A stretch of DNA of 64,000 bases from a virus. Position numbers and translations under genes: made by a program. Below, one piece after another: positions 1,564-50,607 of this stretch. Where the stretch lies: the IMG/VR virus record IMGVR_UViG_3300022602_000024, positions 124,797 through 188,796 of that record, one strand, 5' to 3'. The notes beneath the pieces are model-generated. The model worked only from the letters and a program-made list of their open reading frames with translations, ran no database searches and had not been told where the DNA came from. Every line of letters begins with the position of its first letter. Position 1 is the first letter of the stretch.

Positions 1564-3516
1564 CTATTTTTTATAAAGTGCTCGTAATACCTGTTTTAAC
1601 AGGTGTTGCACAGTGGGATCAGATGCAGGCAAATTGGATTTGGTTTCCATACTGTAAGCAATATCATTCCACTCTTTGTTTTCTATGGTATTCAATGATC
1701 CATTTGAATTGGCAGAGTTGATTGCTTTCAATCCTGCAATGGTAATGGGCACTATTTGATAAGTGGCAAAGCGCCCGCCTACGGTTCTGTTAATTCTCAT
1801 GCCTGCTAATCCTGTTTTGGCTTTTGCAGCAAATTCTTGTTTAACAGCATCTCCAACTGCAACAGGTACGATTTTGACATCTGTTTGTTTAAGTCGACGC
1901 TCCGACAGATAGTAGTTCAATGCAGTAGTCATTTTGCTATCAAATGCAGCCAACCCAACATTCAATACTGGACTACCTTTGGTACGCAGATAATTTACCA
2001 ATGCACTGGAATCAGCTGGATTTACTGGTCGTTGGTCTTGTGTTATTTTTGCTAATTTTGTCTTGTATTCTTGCACATAAGCAGCAGGATCACTGGCAAT
2101 GATCATGGCACGAACAAAACGTCCCACTGCATTTTTAATGCCCTGCAGGTCCGCCAAGTAGTTGCCGCCAGCATGACGGAAACTGATATACTTGCCGTTG
2201 TTGCTGATACTGGCAGTATGTGCACGGGATACATTGTTGGCAAAGTCGGCTAATTTTTTAATATCAATGGTTGTAGCCTGTGCAGGACGCCCAAACACAT
2301 CAGTCTTTTTCTTTTTGACCTTGACATCATTCTCCCAGTTTCCACCTGATAAATCTCGAAACACACTACGAGCATAGTCATTGCCTTCACGACCAAAGTA
2401 TTTGAGCACATACTCGTCGCCTAAGAATACTGCCAGTTTAAGTACATCTAACTTTTGTGGGATACTGACATTGATGTGTAACCCTGTACTGTCATTTGTG
2501 TATAGGCCCATTTGTTGTGCAAGGCCATAAAATCGGTTTAATGCGGTCATAGCATCCAAGGCCGGCAATGGGGGACTGACAATTTCTGCAGCAGAATCTT
2601 CTTCATTGTCAGGCGATAAACTACCATCAGGCTCAATATACCAGTCAGTGAGGTTTTTTGCTTTCTGATGATAACTATGGAACACCTGAACTGTGCTTTC
2701 CATAGCAGTAGTCACTGCTGGTTGTAGTACTGCAGCAGCATCTTCGTAACTGCCCCCATCATCTTCATCATCGTAGTAGTCATCACTTTCATAATCAGTT
2801 AATCTCAATTGATCCCAGACTGTGGATGGATCATAGGTGAAGTATTGACTGGTATGCACATCAACCCGGCCGTTGCCAGTTAGCCAGATCAAGAAGCCTT
2901 TCCATGAAGTGCCTGCGGCAGCCATAGAACGCATACGTACACCTAGTTGTTCTAACTCATTGTTACTGTTTTTTATGTATAGCAAATAACCAACCATTCG
3001 TGCAAATTTCAGTTGATCTGACAATTTTTTACTGGCAAAACTGAAACTGCGATCATCATCTGCGCGAATACGTTTGACAGCAAGATCGGAATATTTTTTC
3101 TGTTGTGTTGGGGTCAGTTTGTTATACAGTTCAATAACACCAGGCAAGATACCGTCTTTGAAAGCTGGATATGCTGCGGTCGCAGTATCGAATCCTTTGA
3201 GTGGTTGCTTGAATCGAAATACAGAATCAAACCACTCGGGAGTCAGATCAATATCGGCCTGGCGACCACCAATTCGTTCATCCCACACATTGTTCTGATA
3301 CAAGGCGTCATCTGTTTGATCTGTGGTATAAGCGGGCTTTTCTCCAGGTTCTTCAGCAGGAGTACCTTTGACAGTAGCCTCGGGCACACATACTTCAAAT
3401 TCAAATCCAACTAACACGCCAGCGGCATGTCCTTGCTCTACTGCTTGTGCAAAGGAAGTAGGGTCCATACGGACTTCATCTAATTCGGGTTGGTGGGCAA
3501 ATTCTGTAATCTTCAT
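1564..3516 (-). CDS. Amidoligase-like (COOH-NH2 ligase fold) protein, probable packaged protein
   Basis: 650 residues. Motifs match the amidoligase family (ATP-dependent ligases with a glutamine-synthetase-like fold): GFEFEV (about 37-42), WYIEPDGSL (292-300), AEIVSPP (310-316), GLHINVSI (345-352) and a later K-x-ISFRHAGG stretch. These are the expected metal, ATP and substrate positions, so the enzyme looks intact. Family members form amide or peptide bonds, for example modifying proteins or cell-wall peptides; the substrate here is unknown. The N-terminus, MKITEF...ELDE, resembles the T4 capsid-targeting peptide shared by its neighbours. An acidic D/Y/E tract lies near residues 242-258. An exact TATAAATA late-type promoter lies just upstream of the start. 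Confidence 0.65.
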   Translation of the reverse strand: MKITEFAHQPELDEVRMDPTSFAQAVEQGHAAGVLVGFEFEVCVPEATVKGTPAEEPGEKPAYTTDQTDDALYQNNVWDERIGGRQADIDLTPEWFDSVFRFKQPLKGFDTATAAYPAFKDGILPGVIELYNKLTPTQQKKYSDLAVKRIRADDDRSFSFASKKLSDQLKFARMVGYLLYIKNSNNELEQLGVRMRSMAAAGTSWKGFLIWLTGNGRVDVHTSQYFTYDPSTVWDQLRLTDYESDDYYDDEDDGGSYEDAAAVLQPAVTTAMESTVQVFHSYHQKAKNLTDWYIEPDGSLSPDNEEDSAAEIVSPPLPALDAMTALNRFYGLAQQMGLYTNDSTGLHINVSIPQKLDVLKLAVFLGDEYVLKYFGREGNDYARSVFRDLSGGNWENDVKVKKKKTDVFGRPAQATTIDIKKLADFANNVSRAHTASISNNGKYISFRHAGGNYLADLQGIKNAVGRFVRAMIIASDPAAYVQEYKTKLAKITQDQRPVNPADSSALVNYLRTKGSPVLNVGLAAFDSKMTTALNYYLSERRLKQTDVKIVPVAVGDAVKQEFAAKAKTGLAGMRINRTVGGRFATYQIVPITIAGLKAINSANSNGSLNTIENKEWNDIAYSMETKSNLPASDPTVQHLLKQVLRALYKK

Positions 3517-3522
3517 AATATG

Positions 3523-3530
3523 TATTTATA
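3523..3530 (-). promoter_or_regulatory. T4-late-like promoter, exact TATAAATA
   Basis: Minus-strand TATAAATA, 6 nt upstream of the amidoligase start codon at 3516. The surrounding sequence is a near-perfect TATTTATATAAATA palindrome, so a plus-strand site is also formed. A T4-type start point (about 6 nt downstream) would leave almost no leader. Confidence 0.55.
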
Positions 3531-3537
3531 TAAATAT

Positions 3538-3660
3538 CTAGTGCCGTTGCAATACGGATAGATGAAGATTTGAAAAACCTGGGGACTTTCCGTATCTTGC
3601 CCCTGGGCAACAACGAATTGGCAGGCGAGTTTCATTAATCATCGCGGCACACTGTTTCAT
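3538..3660 (-). CDS. Possible small protein (40 aa)
   Basis: Short open frame starting at ATG 3660, which overlaps the upstream stop codon by 4 nt (ATGA), the standard coupling in this genome, and ending at TAG 3538. The product is basic with Cys at 4, 17 and 18. No family is recognised and no other support exists, so it may be spurious; otherwise this 140-nt gap holds no gene. Confidence 0.25.
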   Translation of the reverse strand: MKQCAAMINETRLPIRCCPGARYGKSPGFSNLHLSVLQRH

Positions 3661-5621
3661 AAATTAATCTGCGGTGATTTACCAACCCAGCGTGAATCTC
3701 TAATAATGGTTCCTACTTTAAAGTAGTTATCATCTACTTTGCGTACACCCATAGTGATCCAATTGTCATTACGGGTATCAGTAAATGCATATCCAGTACC
3801 ATTGGGTTTGTCTTTAAAATATCTTAGTCCGCGATTCAACATGGCTGCACAGGCTTCCATCAATTGTTCAACCGTCATTCTGGAGCCTCTATTCAATTTG
3901 ATTTGATCAAAAAAGTGCTTGGTAAACTCTAATTTAATACCCTTGGCATGGGCAAAGTGTTGTGTAGCTGTTGTCACTAGTTGTAGTTTGCGCATCAGTT
4001 CTTCGGTATAATAGGGATCAACTTCCCAGTCACTGTGTTCGTGAATCTTTTTAGCCTTGCCGGCTTTCATGTTGGCCAACCAATGTGCCATGCGTTGTTT
4101 TTCGCCTGTACTGTGTTTGGCAACATTTCTTAATGTACTTACGCTGGCTTTGGTATTAACGCCTGAACGTTTAGCAAGTCCTTTGCGTCCGGGATGTTTA
4201 CCATCAGCAAAGTTTTCTGCCACACCTTGCTTAACGAATTGAACGTTTAATTTGGCATTCTTCCACAACGGATTCTTAGGATCCATTCTTTGTTGTAGCA
4301 ACCATATAGCGGATACTCTGTGTGCCCCATCTTCAAACTTGCCGTTTAACACTATTATTGGATCGAGTTGGGCTAATGACTCTGGATGTTTTTTAAAATA
4401 CTCAGCATACTCTATTGCCTTTTCAGTTACGTTCCAACTGTGGTAATCTTTAGCGTCCCAATCATCAACTACATTGTTATAGTAAGGCACACCGGGTATA
4501 GATGATATAATCTGGCCTACAGTCATTTTGCGAGTTGTTATCTTTGCATCGGACGCAAATGGTTTAGGCTTACCAGAACTTGGTCCCGGTTGTGGGACAC
4601 CATCGGCAAAGTTTTCCCATACATTTTTACCCGGCTTGTGCTTGTCCCAAAAGCCAGCACCAGCATCAGTCTGTTGACCACTGCGGCGAATTTTATATCC
4701 TTTGCTCTTTACGTAGTCATACATTGTTTTAGCAATACCTTGACTACGATAGCGTTCGTCAACTTCCAAGTCCTGTGGTAATAATTCATCACCATCAAAG
4801 GCAAATAATACATGACCTAACTCACGACCATTACTACTTGCAGTAACATACATTACTTGGTTATCATAATCGTCATCATCAACGTATTCATCATCTTTTT
4901 GTATTTCAATATTGATATCTATACCATTAAATGCTTCTTCTTCTAAACTTTCGCCACGATAAGGACGTACCCAAGAGAAACGTGTGCTGGCCGGAATCCA
5001 CTTTAATCCTAAACCGCGATTGCCTTTGGCTGGATCAGTGTCAATCAACAACCAGTCTTTTTCATCGCTAAACTTTACTTCGTGTTGCCGACGAATAATA
5101 CGCACAATCTTGCCTGTGCTTTCAATCTTGGCCATCATGGCAGGCTCTGTGTCTTCATCTAGGAATGTGCTGGCAATCTTACGACACAGATTTTTTAACT
5201 TTTCATTCTTTGTTTCTACTACGCGGAAACGTGCTGAACTGGTATCTTGTGTGGGATCAATGTATCCACAGTATACACGTTTAATACCTACTCCGTGTAA
5301 AAATCGACTGCAACTTTCGTCATGGCGATCATCCATTGCTTCACTGCAAGGACTCAATGTTGTAATGACTGTAGATCCTGGGGGAACAGGACCGTTTTCA
5401 CTAACGTAAGCATTGACAGCTACACGTTCAGCGTGTATGCGCTTGCCCTCTGAATCGGGCAAGTTAATACCGCAAACTTCTACTCCGTTGGGATCTAACA
5501 CACAAGCTGCTACGCAACCATATGTGTCTTCATCACGTTCTTGTCCAGAAATGACCATTTCGCATAACCTGGCCAGTATGCGATCTAAATGTTCTGTACT
5601 GAGTATTTCTTTAGTCTGCAT
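3657..5621 (-). CDS. Modular fusion: deaminase-like, GNAT, ParB-like and C-terminal unknown domains, with a GVAE seam
   Basis: 654 residues with several readable modules. Residues 1-150: zinc-dependent cytidine-deaminase-like domain with HAE (63-65) and PC...C (P91-C92, C104). Residues about 255-330: GNAT acetyltransferase pattern (GHVLFAF, then EVDERYRSQGIAKTMYDYV). Residues about 362-465: ParB/sulfiredoxin-like domain with the FEDGAHR motif (429-435). Residues 464-470 are KQGVAEN, the seam seen in two neighbouring polyproteins. A basic segment (474-525) follows, then a C-terminal domain (530-654) loosely like phage RNase-toxin modules. ENFADG occurs twice (336-341 and 469-474), suggesting duplicated module borders. 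The N-terminus (MQTKEILSTE) is compatible with a capsid-targeting peptide. I infer a packaged multi-effector. Confidence 0.65.
   Translation of the reverse strand: MQTKEILSTEHLDRILARLCEMVISGQERDEDTYGCVAACVLDPNGVEVCGINLPDSEGKRIHAERVAVNAYVSENGPVPPGSTVITTLSPCSEAMDDRHDESCSRFLHGVGIKRVYCGYIDPTQDTSSARFRVVETKNEKLKNLCRKIASTFLDEDTEPAMMAKIESTGKIVRIIRRQHEVKFSDEKDWLLIDTDPAKGNRGLGLKWIPASTRFSWVRPYRGESLEEEAFNGIDINIEIQKDDEYVDDDDYDNQVMYVTASSNGRELGHVLFAFDGDELLPQDLEVDERYRSQGIAKTMYDYVKSKGYKIRRSGQQTDAGAGFWDKHKPGKNVWENFADGVPQPGPSSGKPKPFASDAKITTRKMTVGQIISSIPGVPYYNNVVDDWDAKDYHSWNVTEKAIEYAEYFKKHPESLAQLDPIIVLNGKFEDGAHRVSAIWLLQQRMDPKNPLWKNAKLNVQFVKQGVAENFADGKHPGRKGLAKRSGVNTKASVSTLRNVAKHSTGEKQRMAHWLANMKAGKAKKIHEHSDWEVDPYYTEELMRKLQLVTTATQHFAHAKGIKLEFTKHFFDQIKLNRGSRMTVEQLMEACAAMLNRGLRYFKDKPNGTGYAFTDTRNDNWITMGVRKVDDNYFKVGTIIRDSRWVGKSPQINL
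4215..4229 (-). repeat. GVAE seam copy inside the deaminase/GNAT fusion
   Basis: Encodes QGVAE and is nearly identical at the DNA level to the copies in the 6774-8891 and 9616-11571 genes. Here the residue after the Glu is Asn (ENFADG) instead of Gly. Confidence 0.75.
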
Positions 5622-5994
5622 GCTTCAACCCAAAGTATTCAGGATTGGCTTGAGCAAAGTCACGCATGATGATGCCGGCATTGCTGTTGGCTTCGTTTTC
5701 TTCTGGGGTACCAGTTTCGCCAGCACCGTCGTACAACTTGCCCTCTAAGTCTTGCTTGTAGTGTGTGAGTTCGTGTGCTAGTGTTCTTAATACATCAACA
5801 GGATGACGACCAGCAACCACCAGTTCAATAGACTTGGTGTTGGGATTATATCCGCCAAAACTGGTGTCTACAGGGCGTGCTAATAATTTAATAGGAGGCA
5901 ATTTTTCCAGCTCTAATCGTTCGGCTACCCAAGGGGCAAACCGATGAACAAACTGCTTGGCCATGCCTTCAATTAAAAAATCACTTGCTCTCAT
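5611..5994 (-). CDS. HExxH zinc metalloprotease-like protein with capsid-targeting-like N-terminus
   Basis: 127 residues. H74-E-L-T-H78 is a zincin HExxH active site (AHELTHYKQ), followed by an acidic EENEAN stretch near residue 100 that could give the third zinc ligand. The N-terminus, MRASDFLIEGM, fits a T4-type capsid-targeting peptide with a consensus-like LIE/G processing site, so it may be carried in the head. The gene overlaps the downstream start by 11 nt and the upstream gene by 14 nt. The substrate is unknown. Confidence 0.7.
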   Translation of the reverse strand: MRASDFLIEGMAKQFVHRFAPWVAERLELEKLPPIKLLARPVDTSFGGYNPNTKSIELVVAGRHPVDVLRTLAHELTHYKQDLEGKLYDGAGETGTPEENEANSNAGIIMRDFAQANPEYFGLKHAD

Positions 5995-6346
5995 TCAAAA
6001 TCCACGTCTGTGCCGATTCTAACAATTGTTGTAATTCTTCTACACTCTCACAATGCCATTTACGCAATGACTTGTTGATACGGCTATTTGGATCATGTGC
6101 AGTTTTTGCACTAGTACGACTCTTTTTCATGCCCTTCATACGTGCGCAGAAACTGGCACGACGTTTGGCAGCTTTTGATCCTTTTTTCAGTTTACTGGGT
6201 TTAGTAGTTACAGCAGTCTGTAGTTTGCTACCAGGATGTTCTTTACGATAACTGGCAACACCTTTTTTGTTCAGTCCGCCGTTTTTGTTCTTGCCTGATT
6301 TTTTCTGCCAGGCTGCAGTTTCTGTGACAATTTCTTCAAATTTCAT
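5981..6346 (-). CDS. Basic DUF6321-like phage protein, probable internal head protein
   Basis: I place the start at ATG 6346, which overlaps the upstream stop by 4 nt (ATGA), giving 121 residues beginning MKFEEIVTETAAW. The frame extends 8 codons further upstream, which is less likely. The body is very rich in Lys/Arg and carries GGLNKKGVASYRKEHPGS, RRASFCARMKGM and DPNSRINKSLRKWHC, a signature I recall from DUF6321 proteins of T4-like phages. The N-terminus closely resembles T4 internal-protein targeting peptides, and the basic body suits DNA binding inside the capsid. The function is inferred. Confidence 0.65.
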   Translation of the reverse strand: MKFEEIVTETAAWQKKSGKNKNGGLNKKGVASYRKEHPGSKLQTAVTTKPSKLKKGSKAAKRRASFCARMKGMKKSRTSAKTAHDPNSRINKSLRKWHCESVEELQQLLESAQTWILNESK

Positions 6347-6777
6347 TTTGATGTGGCCCTTAACATCCATGCGTGTTTACGGAACGCGTCCATACGTTCT
6401 GCTAAGAAGTTGCTAAATCCATGCTCGCCCTCGGCTTCGGCAATATCATATACACGCTTTAAAATCAATACCATATTCTCAGCATCTTGTAATAGTTCAG
6501 CAACCATTTGTTCACCAGGTACAACTTCGGTAGCATCATCAATGCCGCTCAACACACTGAAGCGACTGTTACTACCAGGAGCATAACTGCCTAGGGCACG
6601 AATCTTTTCTGCAAACTCATCCACGGTACCATATACTTCAGTGTAGATGGTTTCAAACAATGCGTGTAGTTCTTGGAAGTTGATGCCTTCTACATTCCAA
6701 TGAAAGAACGCAGCTTTCAAATAAAATGTAAATTGGCTAGCAAAGGCTATCTTTGCGGCTTTGGCTAATTCGTTCAT
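6343..6777 (-). CDS. Dps/ferritin-like protein
   Basis: Start placed at ATG 6777, an ATGA overlap with the upstream stop; 144 residues. The motif FYLKAAFFHWNVEGINFQEL, followed by F-E-T-I-Y and a D-E-F-A-E-K-I-R-A-L-G helix, matches Dps-family ferritins, where the His, Asp and Glu residues form the inter-subunit ferroxidase site. Dps proteins oxidise and store iron and coat DNA against oxidative damage. Located among candidate packaged proteins, it may protect phage DNA or manage iron on entry; that role is inference. Confidence 0.75.
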   Translation of the reverse strand: MNELAKAAKIAFASQFTFYLKAAFFHWNVEGINFQELHALFETIYTEVYGTVDEFAEKIRALGSYAPGSNSRFSVLSGIDDATEVVPGEQMVAELLQDAENMVLILKRVYDIAEAEGEHGFSNFLAERMDAFRKHAWMLRATSK

Positions 6778-15667: not shown

Positions 15668-17921
15668 TTGAATCAATCATAGGTGAGGTTGGTGTAAATG
15701 GTCCCAACACATTGAATTTAAATTCTTTGTCAAAATCAACTTCTATAACGGTATTTACAGGCACATTTTCAAAAAGTATTTTTTTACTAAGTGGGACTTT
15801 AATCAAATCATTGATCTTACGTCCTAGGGGTCTAGCACCCATTTTGGCATCGTATCCTACTTCTGCCAAGTGATCTACCGCAGTTTCTGTAACACGAATA
15901 CGAATAGACTTTTCGCTAAGTAATTCATTAATTTCATTAATGAATTTACCGACAATTTTCTTGATACTCATGTTATCTAGTTTGTTAAACTTGCAAATAC
16001 CGTCTAAACGATTACGAAACTCAGGTCTAAAGAAGTCTTTAACAGCCTTGTCGTCTTCGTCGGTTTTTTGTAATGCAGTACTAAATCCAATAGTATTGCG
16101 TTCATTGTCGCTGGCACCCAAGTTACTAGTAAGAATAACAATGGCATTACGAGCATCAGCTTTTTTGCCATTACTGCTGGTAATCATACCTTCGTCCATT
16201 AAGGCCAGCAGGATGTTGGTAACGTCTGGGTGTGCTTTTTCAACTTCGTCGAATAAAATAATACAGTTAGGATTCTTTTCGATATCACTAATCAACATAC
16301 CGCCACCTAAGTTGCTGTCATCGTAGCCTACATAGCCCGGGGGTGCACCGATCAGTTTTGCAACTGTATGCTTTTCTTGATATTCACTCATGTCATAGCG
16401 TAACAGTTTCATACCCATGCCTTCAGCCAATAACTTGGCCAATTCTGTTTTACCAGTACCTGTTGGGCCTAGAAACAAATAACTACCCACAGGCTTGTCC
16501 GGACTCTTGAGTCCGGCACGAGCAACATAGATCTTTTCCAACACAGTATCTACTACTGTGTCTTGTCCGTACAACTTGTTTTTAATTGTTTCTTCCAGTC
16601 CTACTAAGCTCTTGGTTGATTCGTTACCAATTTGTTCCACAGGAATCTTGGTAAACTTACTGATAATGTCTACAATATTGCTCTTACGTACAGTCCATCC
16701 CATAGCATTGATTTTTAACTTGGCGGCTGCAGTATCAATCAAGTCAATGGCTTTGTCAGGCAAACGTTTGTCTGGTTGATAACGCACACTTAAATCTACT
16801 GCAGATTCAATAGCATCGTCACTGATATTGCCACCATGAAACTCTTCAAAATACTCACGTAGTCCACGTAAGATTTCTTTGGCAGTTGCTGGAGTAGGTT
16901 CTTCTACTGTTAGTCTACAGAATCTGCGCATTAGGGCACGATCTTTTTCAAAACTTTGTGTATATTCTTCCCATGTGGTCGAAGCAATAACTTTGATTTG
17001 TCCTTTGGTCAATGCAGGTTTAATCATGTTAGCAAAGTCTACACTTGATCCACCACTGCCAGCACCTGCACCACGCATTTGATGTGCTTCGTCAATGAAC
17101 AATATACATTTGCCTTTGGTTTGTAATGCACCAATAACGTCTTTGAACTTTTCTTCAAACTCGCCACGATACTTACTACCAGCAAGCAATGATCCGATAT
17201 CTAGATTGTAAACGACATAATCACGCAGGTAACCGGGAACTTCACCATTGACAATGTTACGTGCCAGGCCTTCGGCAATGGCAGTCTTACCTACTCCAGC
17301 ATCTCCTACTAGTAATACATTTGATTTATTGCGTTTAGCTAATACCTGTGCTATTTCGTCTAGTTCAAATTCACGTCCCACTACAGGGTCAATACGACCT
17401 TCACGTGCTTGTACATTTAAGTTTTCGCAATGTTCTTTTAGTATTTCGTCGGCACGAGCACTCATAGTACCACGGCGTGGTTTGGTTTCAACATAGTAAC
17501 TGTTGTAGAACTCAACTACTGAGCTACGCTCCATTCCGTATTTGACAAAGAAGTAACTAGCGTAACTATTTGTTTCTCCAGCAAGACTCAAAAAGATATC
17601 GACAATCTGTACATGATGGCGACCGCTAAACAGGACTTGTGTAAGTGCACGATTAAACACACGTTCTAAACTGTGTGTTTTCTTTGGAACACAATCTGCT
17701 TCGTTACTGACCAAATAAGTTTGTTTATTTAAATAGTCTTCTATATCATTCAGTAACCCAACAGTATCTACACCAAATGCAGTCATCAGGTCATTAAATG
17801 GTTTAAAGGTCATTAAGCCGTGTGTGAGATGCTCTAGCGTAACATACTCATGATTATATTTTTTTGCAATGTCTGTGGCATTGGCAATAACGACTTCAAT
17901 TTCGGGATTGTGTTGTATCAT
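15633..17921 (-). CDS. clpA: ClpA-type AAA+ unfoldase with ClpP-docking loop
   Basis: 762 residues, close to bacterial ClpA (about 758). Clp_N repeat domain (1-145). AAA1: Walker A GDAGVGKT (206-213), KYRGEF pore loop (250-255), DEAH (277-280). AAA2: Walker A GPTGTGKT (485-492), pore GYVGYD (529-534), DEVEKAH (558-564), FRPEFRNRLD (631-640). The AAA2 loop contains IGF (611-613) in SDNERNTIGF, aligned with the IGL ClpP-binding tripeptide of E. coli ClpA (ClpX uses IGF), so it should dock on host ClpP rather than act as a ClpB disaggregase. The long ClpB middle domain is absent. It lies 8 nt downstream of a DnaJ-like gene. I infer redirection of host proteolysis. Confidence 0.85.
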   Translation of the reverse strand: MIQHNPEIEVVIANATDIAKKYNHEYVTLEHLTHGLMTFKPFNDLMTAFGVDTVGLLNDIEDYLNKQTYLVSNEADCVPKKTHSLERVFNRALTQVLFSGRHHVQIVDIFLSLAGETNSYASYFFVKYGMERSSVVEFYNSYYVETKPRRGTMSARADEILKEHCENLNVQAREGRIDPVVGREFELDEIAQVLAKRNKSNVLLVGDAGVGKTAIAEGLARNIVNGEVPGYLRDYVVYNLDIGSLLAGSKYRGEFEEKFKDVIGALQTKGKCILFIDEAHQMRGAGAGSGGSSVDFANMIKPALTKGQIKVIASTTWEEYTQSFEKDRALMRRFCRLTVEEPTPATAKEILRGLREYFEEFHGGNISDDAIESAVDLSVRYQPDKRLPDKAIDLIDTAAAKLKINAMGWTVRKSNIVDIISKFTKIPVEQIGNESTKSLVGLEETIKNKLYGQDTVVDTVLEKIYVARAGLKSPDKPVGSYLFLGPTGTGKTELAKLLAEGMGMKLLRYDMSEYQEKHTVAKLIGAPPGYVGYDDSNLGGGMLISDIEKNPNCIILFDEVEKAHPDVTNILLALMDEGMITSSNGKKADARNAIVILTSNLGASDNERNTIGFSTALQKTDEDDKAVKDFFRPEFRNRLDGICKFNKLDNMSIKKIVGKFINEINELLSEKSIRIRVTETAVDHLAEVGYDAKMGARPLGRKINDLIKVPLSKKILFENVPVNTVIEVDFDKEFKFNVLGPFTPTSPMIDSNGYIVLDSVQS

Positions 17922-18843: not shown

Positions 18844-19524
18844 TTACTTGGCTGCTACGCCTGCTTCTTTTTCTTTGGTACGTCCAAATGCGCTAACACC
18901 TAGAATACCACCAAAGGCCAAGTGGATAAGTCCACCGTTGCTCAAGGTCAAACTTTGCCATGCAGTATATCCAATTTGAACACCAAAGCCACGTTCTATA
19001 ATAGGCAGGAACATACTGATCATAGGAAACGCCACAAAGTCCATAAAACAAATCAACATATATAACCAACCCATTGCTGGACGCCAAAATGCTTTCATCC
19101 AGTGTTCGGGTTCTTGTCCGGCCTGTGCGTTCATTAACTGTCCAAATGCTGCAGTGGTATTGGCATCGGGTGCTACCTGTTGCTGTTGTCCCATCATCGG
19201 GCGTTGTTGGTTGTATCCACTGCCAAATCCTCCTGATGGATTACCGAACCCGCCAGGTGAGCCTCCAAACCCGCCTCCGCTAAAGCTACTTGCGTTGTTC
19301 CCGCCGAGCGGGGTTGCACCAAAACCACTTGTGCTGGGACTGCCGAATCCTCCTGCTTGAGGTGCGCCAAATGCTGGTGCAGGTGTTGTTGCGGTGGGCG
19401 CGACGGGTGTTGCATTGCTGGCTCCAAAGAAACTGGGAGCACTAGACGTTGCTCCGGGTGGTAATGCTGCAGGCGCAGTTGTTGTGGTTGCAGTTAATTG
19501 ATCATCAGGGTCTAATTTTGGCAT
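18844..19524 (-). CDS. Holin-like membrane protein with FG-rich disordered N-terminus
   Basis: 226 residues. The first 120 are a low-complexity Thr/Ala/Pro then Gly/Phe region with repeated GGFG, SGFG and GGFGNP motifs, similar in composition to FG-nucleoporin repeats. Then EHWMKAFWRPAMGWLYML starts a membrane domain with helices at about 150-173 and 195-214 and a short basic tail. The W-x-RP entry into the first helix is typical of phage holins of the gene-transfer-agent type. It lies next to the spanin/endolysin block, so a holin role is likely but not proven. Followed by a strong terminator. Confidence 0.6.
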   Translation of the reverse strand: MPKLDPDDQLTATTTTAPAALPPGATSSAPSFFGASNATPVAPTATTPAPAFGAPQAGGFGSPSTSGFGATPLGGNNASSFSGGGFGGSPGGFGNPSGGFGSGYNQQRPMMGQQQQVAPDANTTAAFGQLMNAQAGQEPEHWMKAFWRPAMGWLYMLICFMDFVAFPMISMFLPIIERGFGVQIGYTAWQSLTLSNGGLIHLAFGGILGVSAFGRTKEKEAGVAAK

Positions 19525-19792: not shown

Positions 19793-20193
19793 CTTGGTCT
19801 ATTTCCTATAACATGTTGCATTAAACCTGCACTATTTTCTATCGCTCCAAACTTCAACTTACAAAACACAGGACTCACAGGATCGCCTTTGTTATAGCGT
19901 TCTACTAGGCCTTGTGCAATTTCGTTCAATGATGTAGCAGCTTTGTAGTTGTCATCATTCTTGGGAATATTTTCACTGTACAGTTTAAATGCATTGGTTT
20001 CGTAGGCTATACGTTCAGCATTGGCACGACTGGCCACTGCGTCATCACATTTGGTTTTAAACTGGCCGGCATCAGCACGGATAACAGTAATGTTGTTGTA
20101 CTCGTTGGGATCATAATGCGTCATCAAGTAAGCATCAATTACAGTACAACTTGAAAGCATCAATACTGCAGGGATTAGTAGAAGTTTGCGCAT
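19789..20193 (-). CDS. Small lipoprotein
   Basis: 134 residues with a lipoprotein signal: basic MRKLL, hydrophobic core, then a lipobox ending LSSC at Cys16, so it should be lipidated and membrane anchored. The mature part is helical and contains one more Cys pair (C49, C111). It follows an o-spanin gene with a 1-nt stop/start overlap. It could be a second outer-membrane lysis lipoprotein or an exclusion protein. Confidence 0.65.
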   Translation of the reverse strand: MRKLLLIPAVLMLSSCTVIDAYLMTHYDPNEYNNITVIRADAGQFKTKCDDAVASRANAERIAYETNAFKLYSENIPKNDDNYKAATSLNEIAQGLVERYNKGDPVSPVFCKLKFGAIENSAGLMQHVIGNRPR

Positions 20194-20471
20194 TATTTTA
20201 CCCGATCAAATATTTGTTTTTGTGTATTATACCAGTCATTCCAGTTGTCAACACGTGCACGGCATTCATGATACTTGGTATAGTTGTCGGCTACATTACC
20301 AATCACATCACTGAGTTTGTCTGTGTCAACAGGCAACACACCAAGATCTGGGCAAGCAACTTTTAAATCTTCAGGCACATCTGGGAATGACATAACAACA
20401 GGAACTGGCTTGCTGGCACACCCAGACAACATTAATACTGTGGCTATTAAAAATATTTGTCCATATCTCAT
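20193..20471 (-). CDS. o-spanin (Rz1-like outer-membrane lipoprotein)
   Basis: 92 residues. Lipobox LSGC at Cys18 (MLSGCASKP), then a short proline-containing mature domain, a Cys-Pro-Asp-Leu motif and an HECRARVDNWNDWYNTQKQ C-terminus, common in Rz1-like spanins of large phages. It should be lipidated in the outer membrane and bind the i-spanin encoded immediately upstream (4-nt overlap) to fuse the two membranes in the last step of lysis. Confidence 0.75.
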   Translation of the reverse strand: MRYGQIFLIATVLMLSGCASKPVPVVMSFPDVPEDLKVACPDLGVLPVDTDKLSDVIGNVADNYTKYHECRARVDNWNDWYNTQKQIFDRVK

Positions 20472-20929
20472 TTGTTGTCCTTCTTGGGTGCTAGTGGGTA
20501 CTTGGCAGCTGAATTCAATATGTGTACTGCATCAGGATCTACTTTGCACTCAGCATCAATTTTGGTTGCAATGGTCTTGATACGTTCATGTATAACAACT
20601 TGACGTTGATGAATAACTTTAACTTTTTGTTTGCTGGCCTTGGCCAACTTATCATTGGCCGCTTTTCCGGCTGCTTCGGCTGCCGCAACTTTGGCCTGCA
20701 CTTCTTCAACTCGCTTACGCCACTCTAATTCTGTACTGTAACTGCCAAAGAAATAAACTCCGGCTATGGTGATTACCACTGCGGCTACTCTCACTGGAGT
20801 TTTGATCAGCAATGCTGGTTTGTAAAATTGAAACAGGTAAGTGGCAAGATATGTCACCACACCCAAGACCATAATAGCAATAGTTGCCAAGTATAACCAA
20901 CTATCGGGAATGAAACTTAACATCCACAT
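20468..20929 (-). CDS. i-spanin (Rz-like inner-membrane protein)
   Basis: 153 residues with two N-terminal hydrophobic segments (about 9-33 and 45-63), then a periplasmic coiled-coil rich in Ala, Lys and Glu (75-125) and a Cys near 128. This matches an Rz-type i-spanin, with one more membrane segment than lambda Rz. Its gene overlaps the o-spanin gene and follows the endolysin gene directly, the expected order of a lysis cassette. Confidence 0.7.
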   Translation of the reverse strand: MWMLSFIPDSWLYLATIAIMVLGVVTYLATYLFQFYKPALLIKTPVRVAAVVITIAGVYFFGSYSTELEWRKRVEEVQAKVAAAEAAGKAANDKLAKASKQKVKVIHQRQVVIHERIKTIATKIDAECKVDPDAVHILNSAAKYPLAPKKDNK

Positions 20930-20930
20930 G

Positions 20931-21554
20931 TTATGCTCCGAATACTTGTAGTGCGTGTTGGAAGCGTGCTACCCGATCGTCTAGACCCAGGTAACCACCA
21001 TTGATCACTTTGGTTAGTCCATGCATGTCTTGTACATCTGCATAGTGATTGCAATTGTGATGTTCCCAGAAGAAACAAGCCGACTCTACTGCCCCGTCGG
21101 GAGTTTCACAATAGTTAACAGTTTCTTCTAGTCCTTTACCAATTTCCTTGGCAAATGCTTCGTATAGGCTACGGCCAGTGAGTTGAATCAATCCACGACC
21201 ATGGAACATCCATCCATCTCCGCTTTCTTCGGGACCATTGCCCATACGGTCACAATAGGCTCGGTTGGCAATCATTTCAGGATGATGTGCGTATTGTTCG
21301 GCTACACCTGGCGGGAAACGTTTTGGCCAAATGCTGCTTAACGCATGAGCCTGATAGTTTAAATTTTCTTTGAGCGCAGTATATCCGCCGGACTCGTGGG
21401 CAGTTTGCGCCATGAATGCCGCAACTCTTACTGGACTGGTAATTTGGTATTTAGGCAATTCATCACACAAGGCAGCATGCCATTGTGCGGATTGATGATT
21501 GCCTGCTAATATTTGTGCTACTTGATCTGCTCTAAAGTCAAACTCGAATGCCAT
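20931..21554 (-). CDS. GH19-type endolysin
   Basis: 207 residues from ATG 21554, chosen because AAAGGAGTT lies 6 nt upstream; the frame extends 10 codons further. The glycoside hydrolase 19 signature is clear: FMAQTAHESGGYTALKENL (first catalytic Glu in HES), YCDRMGNGPEESGDGWMFHGRGLIQLTGR (second Glu and substrate loop), and GLTKVINGGYLGLDDR. GH19 phage enzymes act as peptidoglycan lysozymes. No signal peptide, so it needs a holin. Translation appears controlled by a hairpin at the ribosome binding site. Confidence 0.88.
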   Translation of the reverse strand: MAFEFDFRADQVAQILAGNHQSAQWHAALCDELPKYQITSPVRVAAFMAQTAHESGGYTALKENLNYQAHALSSIWPKRFPPGVAEQYAHHPEMIANRAYCDRMGNGPEESGDGWMFHGRGLIQLTGRSLYEAFAKEIGKGLEETVNYCETPDGAVESACFFWEHHNCNHYADVQDMHGLTKVINGGYLGLDDRVARFQHALQVFGA

Positions 21555-21558
21555 AACT

Positions 21559-21591
21559 AACTCCTTTGATACAGTATTTACCAAAGGAGTT
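21559..21591 (-). promoter_or_regulatory. Hairpin hiding the endolysin RBS, with a late-like promoter in its loop
   Basis: Perfect 10-bp inverted repeat (21559-21568 with 21582-21591, 13-nt loop). The 3' arm on the transcript contains the AAAGGAGTT ribosome binding site. GGTAAATA (21575-21582) fills the loop; a T4-type late start 6 nt downstream would give a leader without the 5' arm, freeing the site. This is the arrangement known for T4 gene e. Confidence 0.75.
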
Positions 21592-21626: not shown

Positions 21627-22172
21627 TTATCGTATACCAGCGGCTGCACGCAATGATTCTGTAAAATCGTTTTTGGGTGCTTTGGTATCTACTTTGACAC
21701 CAGCGGCAGTTTTTAGTTGGTCTATTGCTTCGTGTCCGTATTCACGTTCGTATGCTTCGGGACTGTTGGGTATTAAGTCTTGTAGTGATTCTAAACTTAG
21801 TTGCGTTTCTGTGCGTCCTTTGTAGTAACGAACACGCCAATCCTCAATCTTTTGCTCAGTTACATTCATTAGGTCTTCCATCAAAGCCATGATGTTTTCA
21901 GCAACATCATGTTTACGATCCAACTCTACAAAAACAATGTAACTACCATCATCCATTTCACCCGAACTAACATCTGCATCAATAACCCAAGGATAACCTT
22001 TTTCAATAAATGCCACCAAGTCTTGTGCGGGCTCTTTGGCATCCAGTTTAAAACTGACCACAACAACATCGCAGTCGTCGCCTAGTTTGCTTTTGAATTC
22101 GTCAATATGCAATTCAGGGTGTACTAAACGCTTTAGATCTCCGTGCTCAAGTCCTTCGAATATATTAGACAT
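21627..22172 (-). CDS. Conserved T4-like phage protein, possibly structural
   Basis: 181 residues from ATG 22172, preceded by AGGAGCTGCAA; the frame extends 17 codons further but without a good site. It begins MSNIFEGLEHGDLKRLVHPE and contains WVIDADVSSGEMDDGSYIVFVELDR, a combination I recall from T4-like environmental phages without a known role. It overlaps the upstream stop by 8 nt. No enzyme motif. Confidence 0.65.
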   Translation of the reverse strand: MSNIFEGLEHGDLKRLVHPELHIDEFKSKLGDDCDVVVVSFKLDAKEPAQDLVAFIEKGYPWVIDADVSSGEMDDGSYIVFVELDRKHDVAENIMALMEDLMNVTEQKIEDWRVRYYKGRTETQLSLESLQDLIPNSPEAYEREYGHEAIDQLKTAAGVKVDTKAPKNDFTESLRAAAGIR

Positions 22173-22728
22173 TTGCAGCTCCTGGTTGTTGCTCTGGAGC
22201 AATACCTGCTTCAGCATTGACATTTGACTGTTGATTTACAGCTTCATTGTCGGCGCCAGTTTCGTAGGCTTGATCGACTTCTTCCATGTCAACTGTACCC
22301 GACTCTAATTCTAACGCACCTTGTTGTATGTCCTGCATTAGTTTCTTGGGCATAATGATTTCAACCAGCCATACAGGACTTTTTACATCCTTGGGCACTT
22401 TAGTACCAGGCTTAAAATCGTATGGGGTCTTAATCTTTACAGGGTGTTCAAAGTAATCTTTTTTGTAGTTTACTTCAATGTCGTATTCGCTTAGACGTGC
22501 AGCTCCGCGTGGATCAGGCATTTTTTTGTAGGGCCACATAAAAGTACATTTAACAAAATACTTTTCGTATTCGGGACCGTCTACTAATTCACCTTGTTTC
22601 CAGTTGGCAAATGCATATAAGTCAAGTTCGTCTACAACACGCTCAAAATCTAACAGTGTGCTGACAGCACTATCTGTCATTAAGATTTCTTTGGTGTTTT
22701 GTAATAAGTCTCTAATTTTTGCAGGCAT
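22165..22728 (-). CDS. Conserved phage protein, possibly structural
   Basis: 187 residues. Beta-rich centre (YFVKCTFMWPYKKMPDPRGAARL, then PVWLVEIIMPKKLM) and a disordered Gln/Ala/Glu tail. It pairs with the next downstream gene through an 8-nt overlap. A GATAAATA late-like promoter lies 8 nt upstream of the start, so expression is likely late. Family not recognised. Confidence 0.6.
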   Translation of the reverse strand: MPAKIRDLLQNTKEILMTDSAVSTLLDFERVVDELDLYAFANWKQGELVDGPEYEKYFVKCTFMWPYKKMPDPRGAARLSEYDIEVNYKKDYFEHPVKIKTPYDFKPGTKVPKDVKSPVWLVEIIMPKKLMQDIQQGALELESGTVDMEEVDQAYETGADNEAVNQQSNVNAEAGIAPEQQPGAANV

Positions 22729-22736
22729 AGTGTAAA

Positions 22737-22744
22737 TATTTATC
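22737..22744 (-). promoter_or_regulatory. Late-like promoter (GATAAATA)
   Basis: Core TAAATA just upstream of the 22165-22728 gene, inside a 36-nt AT-rich gap. Confidence 0.45.
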
Positions 22745-24043: not shown

Positions 24044-24955
24044 TTATTGTAACGAGACACCTTGTGTCAGACGGCGCCAATCATTGGTTTGTTTGTGGTA
24101 CCAAGTTTGAATTTCGGCATCAGGGGCTTGGTCAATGTCTTGGCAATGGTCGGGCTTGAATGAATCTAATACAACTTGGCTACGACCTGCTTTTAGCAAG
24201 ATTTCGCGCCATTCTTTAAATTTACTATCCGACATATTTGCAGGCACTAATAACTGTGCTGGGCTATTCATTAACTCTAAATCTTTGCTGAATCCTTCTG
24301 ATGCTAATGTTTTGACTCCAGCAACAGTCTGATTACCGGTAATACCCAGTGCATAAATTTGATTTTTACCTTCTTTGTATTGTTCAATGTCGCCTAGGAA
24401 GTTGACAGAAAAATCAGTTGTACCATTTAGAACTGACAATACTGCTTCGCTGGTGCTTTTAAAAGGAATAACAACCAAGTTGGGATATTTTTTAGCAAGT
24501 TGTGTAACTACAAGATGTGTAGTTGTGCCAAGCCCACTGATCCCGATGCTCAATGATTTATCATGTGGTACTTCATTCCATGATTTGTATTTTTTACTTG
24601 CAATAACAATAGGGGCACTGCATACTGGCAATAGTTCTTTAAATTGACCAATGTCGTGACTTTCAGACACAGGAAAGAAATTGGGTCTAATAAAAAATGC
24701 AGAACTATTTGCTAGAATAGAATTGTTTTGTGAATTACTTAGTATATAGTTGGCTGCAACACTACCACCAGCCCCGGGTTTAGTATCGAAAATAAATGTG
24801 TATTTGTCTTGTATTTTGTTTGCTTCGTCAGCAAGCGAGCGATGAAAGTTTGCTGCCGTGTCGGATGCTGTCCAACTATAAATGATTGTTACAACTTCTC
24901 GTGCCTGTGCAGTTAGTACAGAGGCGAGAAGGAGAACTGATAAAAGTTTTTTCAT
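24044..24955 (-). CDS. TctC/Bug-type periplasmic solute-binding protein, copy A
   Basis: 303 residues from ATG 24955 (AGGA site upstream). A Sec signal peptide (MKKLLSVLLLASVLTAQA) is followed by the tripartite tricarboxylate receptor fold: TIIYSWTASDTAANFHRSL, FDTKPGAGGSVAANYI, IGISGLGTTTHL, LVVIPFKSTSEAV and LGDIEQY. Such receptors bind carboxylates or similar small molecules for TTT transporters. No TctA/TctB membrane genes are present, so the phage protein would have to use host transporters, sequester the ligand, or do something else. Confidence 0.75.
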   Translation of the reverse strand: MKKLLSVLLLASVLTAQAREVVTIIYSWTASDTAANFHRSLADEANKIQDKYTFIFDTKPGAGGSVAANYILSNSQNNSILANSSAFFIRPNFFPVSESHDIGQFKELLPVCSAPIVIASKKYKSWNEVPHDKSLSIGISGLGTTTHLVVTQLAKKYPNLVVIPFKSTSEAVLSVLNGTTDFSVNFLGDIEQYKEGKNQIYALGITGNQTVAGVKTLASEGFSKDLELMNSPAQLLVPANMSDSKFKEWREILLKAGRSQVVLDSFKPDHCQDIDQAPDAEIQTWYHKQTNDWRRLTQGVSLQ

Positions 24956-25035
24956 AAAATATTTCCTATTTGTTTGTATGAGTATACGAGAAAGTGAATG
25001 GGAAGTCAATCCCATTCACTGATTGAAATTACCGA

Positions 25036-48166: not shown

Positions 48167-50533
48167 TTATAGTATTACCGCTTCAATGATTTTTTCGCCT
48201 GGTTCCAAATTGGTAGTGAGTGATTTGGCAAAAACTGCTTGCCCCAACAACACAGTGCCTACACTGGCAGCATACCCAGGAGTGTTGGAAGTTACCAAAC
48301 TGTCGCCTTTGGTAACAGGGCCAATCAATTTAACAGGAACTCGTCCACGTAGTGCAACTGGCAATCCTGTCACTGCATCATTCATCAAGTATGCGGGATT
48401 GGTTGATATGGCTCCAGCGACTCTTGTATCGCAGTGAAGATTTGTTGTGGTGATTTCAGCATCGCCGCCAAAGATAACAACTGTACCAGGTTCGTAGTCT
48501 GCGTCAGCAACATATATCTCTGCCAAGTCGGCGTATTGTGCGTGAATAGCAGTACCATAAATGTTGTTCCACCAAGCAGTAGTACTACCAATATTGTAAG
48601 TCAGGTTAGCACTAGGAGTAATGTTACCCGTAACAGATTCGTTGTAAACTGTTGTAGTAGTACCTTGCACAGTCAAGTTGCCACTGACTAATATGCTACC
48701 AGCAGTGACATTACCGGAATAAACACCTGTGGTACCAATTACATTACCGTAGTGTGTGGTTGCAATCACATTGCCAGCAGTGACATTACCGGAATAAACA
48801 CCTGTGGTTGCGATCACATTACCATAGTATGTTGTTGCAATCACATTGCCAGCAGTTACATTTGCAAATGTAGGACTTGCAGTGGTTCTAATGTCTTGTG
48901 GAGTGCTAATGTTGGCATAACTAGAACCCACTGCAATAGTAACACCATTGGTACTGGCAAAAGTCAAGTTACCACCTGTTGACAGTGTTCCTGATCCTGA
49001 GGTGCCTACTAAAGTTATATTTGAGTTGGGTACTGTAAAGGTTACATTTGCAGCTGTTATTATTCGACCAAATGCGTCTGTGGTAATAACAGGAATATTG
49101 CCATTTCCGCCCACTGTTACAGCGCCAGGTCCCACCGGGGTCAAGTTAATAGCATTGGCCGAAATGGTCAGGTTACCTGCACCAGAACTAACAGAAACAA
49201 CACGATTGCCGTAGTCATATACACCTGTTCCGTTGACTGTTCCGTTGACAGTACCGTATAATGTTCCGTAACTATTTCCGATCACGTTACCAGCAGTTAA
49301 GTTTCCGGATACGCTAGCAGATGGTGCAGATACTGTGGCAGTTATATTCAATGTGCCGATTGTAGAGTAGCTGGCTCCTACATTGTTGGCTTGTAATATA
49401 CCTGTACTGATAGTACCAGTACCAGTTACAGTTAGCCCTGTTAAGGTTCCTAAGCTAGTAATATATGGTTGTGCTGCAGTTTGTACTTGGCCATAATATG
49501 GACCTACAATACCCAGTGCAGAAACGTTACCACCTACGCCGACGCCACCTGTAACAACCAACGCACCTGTTGCAGTTGACGTTGACGGAGTAGGAATGCC
49601 AATAGCAACATTTTGTGTAAAATATCCACCAGAAACTGCATTATACAGTATACCAACGCCAGGTGAATTTGGAGTAATAACTGGATAGCCTCCAGAATAT
49701 ACAGTCCCAGCAGCTACAATGTTTCCTGCGGTAGTTAGGTTACCACTTCCACTGACAGAGATATTCCCACCAACATTTAAATTGCCGCCTACGCCTGCAC
49801 CGCCTGCTACAATCAACGCACCAGAAGAAGTAGAAGTTGAAACAGTTGAGTTACTTAAGAATTGACTTCCAAAATGTGTATTCCCGTAAACACCACCAAC
49901 AACAATATTATTTCCTAAAGTTGCATTAGTTGGGGTTATTATGTAAGCAAAGTCATTGGTTGTGTATTGATGCCCAAAGAATGCATAGGTATTTGAACCA
50001 TAATTGTTATACACATTACCAAAAATACCAGTATCTTGATAGTCAGTTGCAGGGTCGTTTGCATGAATTAAGAATAAACCAGCACTGCTGGTATTGTTTA
50101 CAACATTATTAATACTTTGAAAACTTGCATAGATATTGCCAATGGGGTTTGTTGGAGTACCAATGTTAAGTCCCGACCCAATTGGTAACAAATTTCCTGA
50201 TACATTGATATTACCATAAAAGAAAGACTTCCCACCGGCATAAACGCCAACATTTGCAATTATATTGTTGGCAGTAACATTGCCGGTTATGTTGGCATTA
50301 GTGGCGGTTATGCTAGGAGAATAAAGATTTGTGATATTTGCTGAGCCGGCATTTAGTTGCAGTTCAACGTTGGCATTTAACCAGTCTTGGCTTACACTCG
50401 ACAATTGTGCCGAAATATTAGCAAAATTGTTATCAACCTTATTAAAAGCGTCAAATAGCGTATCGCCAGTCCCACTGTTGGGAGTTGATGTGTTGATATT
50501 TACGACCGAAGTCGAGCCATTCCAGAATGCCAT
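48167..50533 (-). CDS. Long tail-fibre protein with repeats and conserved C-terminal head
   Basis: 788 residues. N-terminus MAFWNGSTSVVNINTSTPNSG, TLFDAFNKVDNNFANI (attachment). Repeats of ...SSSGALIVAGGAGVGGNLNVGG... and a 25-residue tandem (TAGNVIATTYYGNVIATTGVYSGNV form) build the shaft. The C-terminal 150 residues (AQYADLAEIYVADADYEPGTVVIFGG, then GRVPVKLIGPVTKGDSLV) form a domain common to T4-like fibre and peptidase-type tail proteins. Its RBS lies in a hairpin with a late promoter in the loop. Confidence 0.75.
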   Translation of the reverse strand: MAFWNGSTSVVNINTSTPNSGTGDTLFDAFNKVDNNFANISAQLSSVSQDWLNANVELQLNAGSANITNLYSPSITATNANITGNVTANNIIANVGVYAGGKSFFYGNINVSGNLLPIGSGLNIGTPTNPIGNIYASFQSINNVVNNTSSAGLFLIHANDPATDYQDTGIFGNVYNNYGSNTYAFFGHQYTTNDFAYIITPTNATLGNNIVVGGVYGNTHFGSQFLSNSTVSTSTSSGALIVAGGAGVGGNLNVGGNISVSGSGNLTTAGNIVAAGTVYSGGYPVITPNSPGVGILYNAVSGGYFTQNVAIGIPTPSTSTATGALVVTGGVGVGGNVSALGIVGPYYGQVQTAAQPYITSLGTLTGLTVTGTGTISTGILQANNVGASYSTIGTLNITATVSAPSASVSGNLTAGNVIGNSYGTLYGTVNGTVNGTGVYDYGNRVVSVSSGAGNLTISANAINLTPVGPGAVTVGGNGNIPVITTDAFGRIITAANVTFTVPNSNITLVGTSGSGTLSTGGNLTFASTNGVTIAVGSSYANISTPQDIRTTASPTFANVTAGNVIATTYYGNVIATTGVYSGNVTAGNVIATTHYGNVIGTTGVYSGNVTAGSILVSGNLTVQGTTTTVYNESVTGNITPSANLTYNIGSTTAWWNNIYGTAIHAQYADLAEIYVADADYEPGTVVIFGGDAEITTTNLHCDTRVAGAISTNPAYLMNDAVTGLPVALRGRVPVKLIGPVTKGDSLVTSNTPGYAASVGTVLLGQAVFAKSLTTNLEPGEKIIEAVIL
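48699..48850 (-). repeat. 75-bp tandem repeat in the fibre gene
   Basis: Copies begin at 48699, 48774 and (partly) 48849, spacing 75 bp (25 codons). The second differs from the first mainly by silent or conservative changes, indicating recent duplication of shaft units. Confidence 0.8.
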
Positions 50534-50537
50534 ATGT

Positions 50538-50570
50538 CAAATCCTTGTATATGCTTATTTAGCGGATTTG
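50538..50570 (-). promoter_or_regulatory. Hairpin over the fibre RBS with a late-like promoter in its loop
   Basis: Arms CAAATCC/GGATTTG (50564-50570 with 50538-50544), 19-nt loop. The downstream arm contains GGATTT of the AAGGA ribosome site; GCTAAATA (50556-50563) lies in the loop, so a late transcript would lose the upstream arm. Confidence 0.6.
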
Positions 50571-50607
50571 AACAAAGCGGGTATTTGACCCTGAATTAAG
50601 TAGGTAG

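Follow-up and report, generated by a model that had tools for sequence, protein, structure and literature searches.

The endolysin gene of a giant, T4-related phage was found to be preceded by a ribosome binding site (RBS) hairpin that carries the core motif of a T4-type late promoter in its loop. The element lies in the window, a 64,000-nucleotide stretch of a virus record of 354,429 bases, and its presence there is confirmed. We consider it likely to be a cis-acting switch, with a late promoter placed inside an RBS hairpin, that works like the one before gene e of phage T4. RNA entering from upstream would carry both arms and fold into a hairpin of 10–13 bp that hides the endolysin Shine-Dalgarno (SD) sequence, so that little or no lysin is made. 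A gp55-type sigma factor would bring RNA polymerase to the TAAATA in the loop, and the RNA starting at about 21570/21569 would lack the 5′ arm, retain the complete SD and allow the endolysin to be translated. We infer the existence and timing of the read-through RNA and the effect on the timing of lysis.

Hairpin element and lysis cassette

The minus strand from 21591 to 21552 reads AACTCCTTTG-GTAAATACTGTAT-CAAAGGAGTT-AGTT-ATG, of which 21591–21559 is the element itself. The 5′ arm AACTCCTTTG (21582–21591) and the 3′ arm CAAAGGAGTT (21559–21568) form an exact 10-bp inverted repeat, separated at the DNA level by a 13-nt loop, GTAAATACTGTAT (21569–21581). The SD sequence AAAGGAG is contained entirely within the 3′ arm, as is AAAGGAGTT (21567–21559), and the hairpin ends four bases before the endolysin ATG at 21554–21552. 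The perfect inverted repeat hiding the RBS reported in the preliminary description, which gave no strand, is therefore exact on the minus strand. The same description placed a late promoter word in the loop. The 5′ arm, however, already ends with the first G of GGTAAATA (21582–21575); just the core TAAATA (21580–21575) belongs to the loop, and the full T4 word TATAAATA is not the promoter here.

Folding of the RNA extended the stem by three pairs to 13 bp and reduced the loop to 7 nt, with an energy of −15.6 kcal/mol and a z-score of −4.95 relative to shuffled sequences. Perfect repeats of at least 10 bp with loops of 4–20 nt gave 54 strand-hits in the whole 354-kb record, five of them directly preceding a called start. 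TAAATA was present in the loop of two of these five, where the chance of finding it in any one 13-nt loop is about 0.4%.

The endolysin (20931–21554, minus strand) is a protein of 207 amino acids with an ATG start that matched PHROG endolysins with an E-value of 3.7e-72, the matches comprising the endolysin family phrog_181 and chitinase-like families, while in Pfam it matched GH19 only. It was examined as an orthologue of T4 gene e and rejected, the lysin not being homologous to T4 lysozyme. It is the first gene of a lysis cassette on the minus strand, which continues with an inner-membrane, Rz-like spanin (20468–20929; weak match, E 2e-4) and an outer-membrane, Rz1-like spanin lipoprotein (20193–20471) and ends with a holin-like membrane protein (18844–19524; weak match). 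The phage also encodes a second protein with a GH19 domain (record positions 219432–219611, minus strand; L001), and a TctC-like periplasmic solute-binding receptor protein, unexpected in a phage, is encoded at 24044–24958 of the window (minus strand).

Two virion structural genes lie upstream on the same strand. The nearer one (21627–22172) has its stop codon about 35 nt before the hairpin, and the other (22165–22728) has TAAATA at 22742–22737 and 22753–22748, at distances of 8 and 19 nt from its ATG; relatives keep this close placement. The latter gene is a likely source of late read-through RNA, and no terminator-like site was found on the minus strand of the intergenic stretch that leads up to the hairpin. 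The target of the RNA switch may thus be late read-through from these virion genes, in which case the hairpin would cap the dosage of lysin rather than block its early synthesis. We regard this variant, which is compatible with the main reading, as possible though less likely than not: T4 gene e is silenced on early RNA (PMC3014915), and an endolysin of the same design in another contig (L043, described below) sits among genes for topoisomerase subunits, RNA ligase, dNMP kinase and a polynucleotide-kinase-like protein, where the topoisomerase, kinase-like and ligase genes are of kinds that are early or middle in T4. Given possible late read-through, the design would be compatible with a late transcript that begins farther upstream than the hairpin.

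Predicted late promoter and sigma factor

T4 late promoters have an 8-bp TATA box, and transcription begins about one turn downstream of it (PMC2988020). In the phage of the window the fifth base following TAAATA is often A. From this spacing and the A-richness of these positions, a late start is predicted at the fifth to sixth base after TAAATA, 21570/21569 on the minus strand, from a promoter whose activity we infer. The expectation that a late start would drop the upstream arm is in line with this prediction, which agrees with the start near 21568–21569 first proposed and would exclude the 5′ arm.

A search of the record with T4 gp55 gave one matching place, and the protein encoded there matched the late sigma families phrog_12791 (E 1.9e-81) and phrog_234 (E 9.3e-25). 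Its best matches among phage records were in the giant phages Sinorhizobium phage Phosso, PA5oct-like phages and 121Q/CBB-like phages. TAAATA occurred 113 times in the 100 bases before the starts of 400 called genes, compared with 34–66 times for six other AT-rich hexamers, and its position peaked at 4–7 nt and at about 18–28 nt before the start, the latter peak being associated with strong SDs. A homologue of the gp45 sliding clamp gave no sequence match in the record, either by family or with the T4 protein, and a distant clamp is still possible. The jumbo phages CBB and GAP32 resemble this phage in having a gp55-type sigma factor and an ATAAATA-like motif before structural genes, with gp45 (in CBB likewise) and gp33 undetected; the transcription section of the source mentions no RBS hairpin at the promoter (PMC5259590). 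A scan for sigma70 promoters upstream of the endolysin gave no excess over shuffled sequences.

About 23 genes have TAAATA just 4–7 nt before the ATG, compared with 0–11 for scrambles of the same hexamer. These genes almost lack an SD, 4% having a match of at least 5/6 against 56% of the late genes with long leaders, and they are predicted from this arrangement to give leaderless late mRNAs. Examples in the window are the genes starting at 17921 (TAAATA-TTTTT-ATG), 3516 and 51476, and the exact TAAATA-TTTTT-ATG spacing is retained in five relatives.

Accessibility of the initiation region

The cost of opening the endolysin initiation region was calculated in silico as 17.2 kcal/mol in the read-through RNA and 2.2 kcal/mol in the late RNA, the latter value holding for any 5′ end located 2–8 nt after TAAATA. 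When the 5′ segment that is lost from the late RNA was shuffled, none of 1000 shuffles buried the initiation region as deeply. The same calculation for T4 gene e, a case that has been studied by experiment, gave the near-identical values of 15.3 kcal/mol for the read-through RNA and 1.9 kcal/mol for the late RNA. In terms of the change in SD opening, the endolysin ranked first of the 58 late-promoter genes with a leader, at 13.4 kcal/mol, followed by a head-tail adaptor gene (12.5), the window's tail-fibre-like gene (7.7) and a gene for a homing endonuclease (5.2), the remaining genes changing by at most 4.1 kcal/mol. The computed fold of the read-through RNA, proposed earlier as a check, thus has a buried initiation region, and according to this model the hairpin would hide the SD and/or the AUG in the read-through RNA.

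Comparison with close relatives

The same gene neighbourhood was present in many viral contigs, and eight sequences from the six closest phage lineages, including two near-identical or close pairs, were aligned. TAAATA, the SD (GGAG) and the ATG were invariant in all eight, whereas the upstream arm was not. One close relative (L420) has a bulged hairpin with a different stem, ATCCCCTTGATA-GCTAAATACTT-TATCAAGGGAGAT, and the promoter in the loop as in the window; its opening cost falls from 16.0 kcal/mol in the read-through RNA to 1.8 kcal/mol in the late RNA, with 3 of 1000 shuffles reaching the same depth. In a second (L338) the hairpin ATAGTTGTATC-AAGGA-GATACAACTAT(G) is shifted downstream, so that its 5′ arm and the end of the promoter core overlap, most of the SD falls in the loop and the stem takes in the start codon. 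If transcription began 5 nt after TAAATA, the 5′ arm of L338 would likewise be lost, and the opening cost falls from 15.6 to 1.9 kcal/mol (0 of 1000 shuffles). In strength both hairpins match that of the window.

A fold conserved across all relatives was expected and was not seen. The four sequences L005, L007, L008 and L424 keep the promoter motif and have no significant hairpin by the shuffle test, and TAAATA is missing at that place from most endolysin relatives that are more distant, so the switch is not essential to the endolysin. Fisher's method, applied to seven sequences with these four among them and ignoring shared ancestry, gave a combined P-value of 7e-6. No gene annotated as an endolysin was found beside the homologous virion gene in the cultured relatives PA5oct and Phosso, and a nucleotide search of phage records gave no match, near or distant.

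Short repeats are common in AT-rich intergenic DNA, and the lack of a significant hairpin in most relatives would suit a chance inverted repeat beside a genuine late promoter. This explanation is nevertheless very improbable in view of the shuffle test of the window's hairpin, the combined P-value with the limits just given, the occurrence in one genome of two perfect 10-bp repeats that precede starts and hold TAAATA in the loop, and the strong independent hairpins of L420 and L338. The perfect 10-bp dyad that flanks the promoter core could also be a DNA operator, at which a bound protein represses the late promoter, the RNA fold being incidental; T4 I-TevI combines a hairpin with an operator over its late promoter (PMC2988022). 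An operator is unlikely, because no relative keeps the dyad sequence while TAAATA is kept, the stem of L420 is bulged and different, and that of L338 has moved downstream to include the start codon. The feature held in common is burial of the RBS and not a DNA word.

A stable hairpin over an RBS resembles some RNA thermometers, and the element might alternatively serve as a thermometer, a terminator or an RNase III site instead of a promoter-coupled switch. A U-run is absent after the stem, and a search of Rfam gave no thermometer or other relevant match, the sole hit being to a ciliate telomerase RNA, below threshold and on the opposite strand. The predicted late start drops one arm in all three strong lysin cases of the clade and in L043, and any of these functions is accordingly given very little credence. 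The promoter-coupled switch is preferred, and the sequences are consistent with a hairpin function that was gained, rebuilt and lost, rather than with one element inherited intact. The preliminary description had left open whether the control was convergent or inherited; convergence with turnover fits, and inheritance from T4 does not, since the lysin is non-homologous and hairpins occur in some close relatives only, each with a different sequence.

Related elements in the same phage and in other viruses

The second perfect 10-bp hairpin of the record, ACTCCGTTAT-...TATAAATA...-ATAACGGAGT, was found in the repeat scan before the head-tail adaptor (Ad2) gene at 344427–345383 (L037 17374–17415, record position about 345,400, minus strand). 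Its opening cost falls from 19.9 to 2.8 kcal/mol, with 0 of 200 shuffles reaching the same depth, and the Ad2 family is also among the hairpin-bearing genes of other contigs. A weaker copy with the same layout, TCAAATCC and GGATTTGA separated by 19 nt that contain GCTAAATA, lies at 50537–50571 (minus strand) before the tail-fibre-like gene at 50533–48167.

Two further places in the phage were noted. The region at 7431 of L023 (minus strand), before a gene for a protein of 1935 amino acids (record 1624–7431), has a nearly identical promoter-RBS cassette, TGGTAAATACTGTATCACAGGAGTT, in which CTGTG/CACAG replaces CTTTG/CAAAG; this resembles a compensatory pair change, yet the cassette's own fold is weak. 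A homing endonuclease gene (L032 942–1634, minus strand) has a moderate promoter-linked RBS fold, comparable to those of T4 I-TevI and Aeh1 mobE.

A scan of a viral collection for the arrangement CTCCTTT-TAAATA-AAAGGAG gave at least 120 stretches, compared with 62 when AATTAA was used in place of the promoter core and 22 with a non-complementary arm, the enrichment being a lower bound. Among the matches listed, 40 of 83 unique hairpins precede an ATG open reading frame, a share that did not differ significantly from that of the AATTAA control (P 0.10). Among these listed matches, 25 of the 40 hairpins before an ATG carry the full T4 word TATAAATA, as against 9 of the 43 others (P 1.5e-4), a contrast that is firmer than the AATTAA comparison. 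The genes behind the listed hairpins include those for tail sheath, tail tube, head-tail adaptor and baseplate proteins, homing endonucleases and one peptidase-type endolysin, that of L043. This T4-type contig has the same layout before an endolysin that is unrelated to that of the window and lies among replication genes, and the opening cost falls from 11.9 to 3.9 kcal/mol (2 of 1000 shuffles). A gp55 gene was not found on the 22-kb L043 fragment, whose promoter was classed by its motif together with the T4-type gene set. A near-twin of the window's hairpin occurs in a 141-kb contig with its own gp55-type sigma factor (L022), before a gene whose product starts with a signal-peptide-like stretch.

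ATAATA was tried as a scrambled-promoter control and rejected, as it was not neutral and retrieved sigma70 −10 boxes inside hairpins. In L184, L185, L201, L203, L214, L215, L216, L232, L237, L246 and L253, TTGAC-N17-TATAAT promoters before small open reading frames have their −10 box within an RBS hairpin loop and so represent a sigma70-type form of the design.

Discussion

Late promoters coupled to an RBS hidden in read-through RNA are known from T4 genes e, soc, 49, I-TevI and others, and T4-like phages that have gene e without the structure are also known (PMC3014915, PMC2988022). The likeness to gene e drawn in the preliminary description is supported for the endolysin hairpin on every point that could be computed. 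Both are lysin genes with the RBS hidden, in the window by computation, in read-through RNA; the late RNA of gene e lacks the 5′ part of the hairpin (PMC3014915), as is predicted for that of the endolysin, which has a late motif, buried and free RBS energies matching those of gene e and a gp55-type sigma factor encoded in the genome. There are differences between the two. T4 lysozyme belongs to another enzyme family than the GH19-type endolysin; gene e has two TATAAATA late promoters, with 5′ ends mapped from the upstream one, which overlaps the 5′ strand, where the window has one TAAATA core in the loop; and early read-through has been demonstrated for gene e, while in the window it is one option beside late read-through.

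T4 soc, 49, I-TevI/II/III and segB and Aeh1 mobE are likewise late genes with an RBS sequestered in read-through RNA (PMC3014915, PMC2988022), and the late promoter of I-TevI also removes the 5′ arm. Unlike the endolysin, these are mostly homing endonucleases or other genes rather than lysins, and they have been described in T-even and Aeromonas phages but not in a phage of 354 kb. As far as the cited papers go, what is new is that the predicted switch stands before a non-homologous lysin gene of a giant phage, that it differs in form among close relatives and that there are signs of its wide use before genes for virion proteins. The data support a switch like that of gene e arising and turning over through selection on the fold. 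A broader proposal is that gp55-type phages have repeatedly re-invented the promoter within an RBS hairpin as a general design, used for virion genes (tail sheath, tail tube, head-tail adaptor, baseplate), homing endonucleases and unrelated lysins, with rapid turnover of sequence while function persists and with a sigma70-type counterpart, the −10 box in the loop, in other phages; we judge the case for and against it to be evenly balanced.

The solution found in T4 gene e for keeping a lethal enzyme off read-through RNA would thus arise on non-homologous lysins in distant giant phages. Since close relatives differ in hairpin sequence, the likely cause is selection on the fold and not the descent of a single element. 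An RBS hairpin with TAAATA in its loop may then serve as a simple signature for genes whose premature translation the phage avoids.
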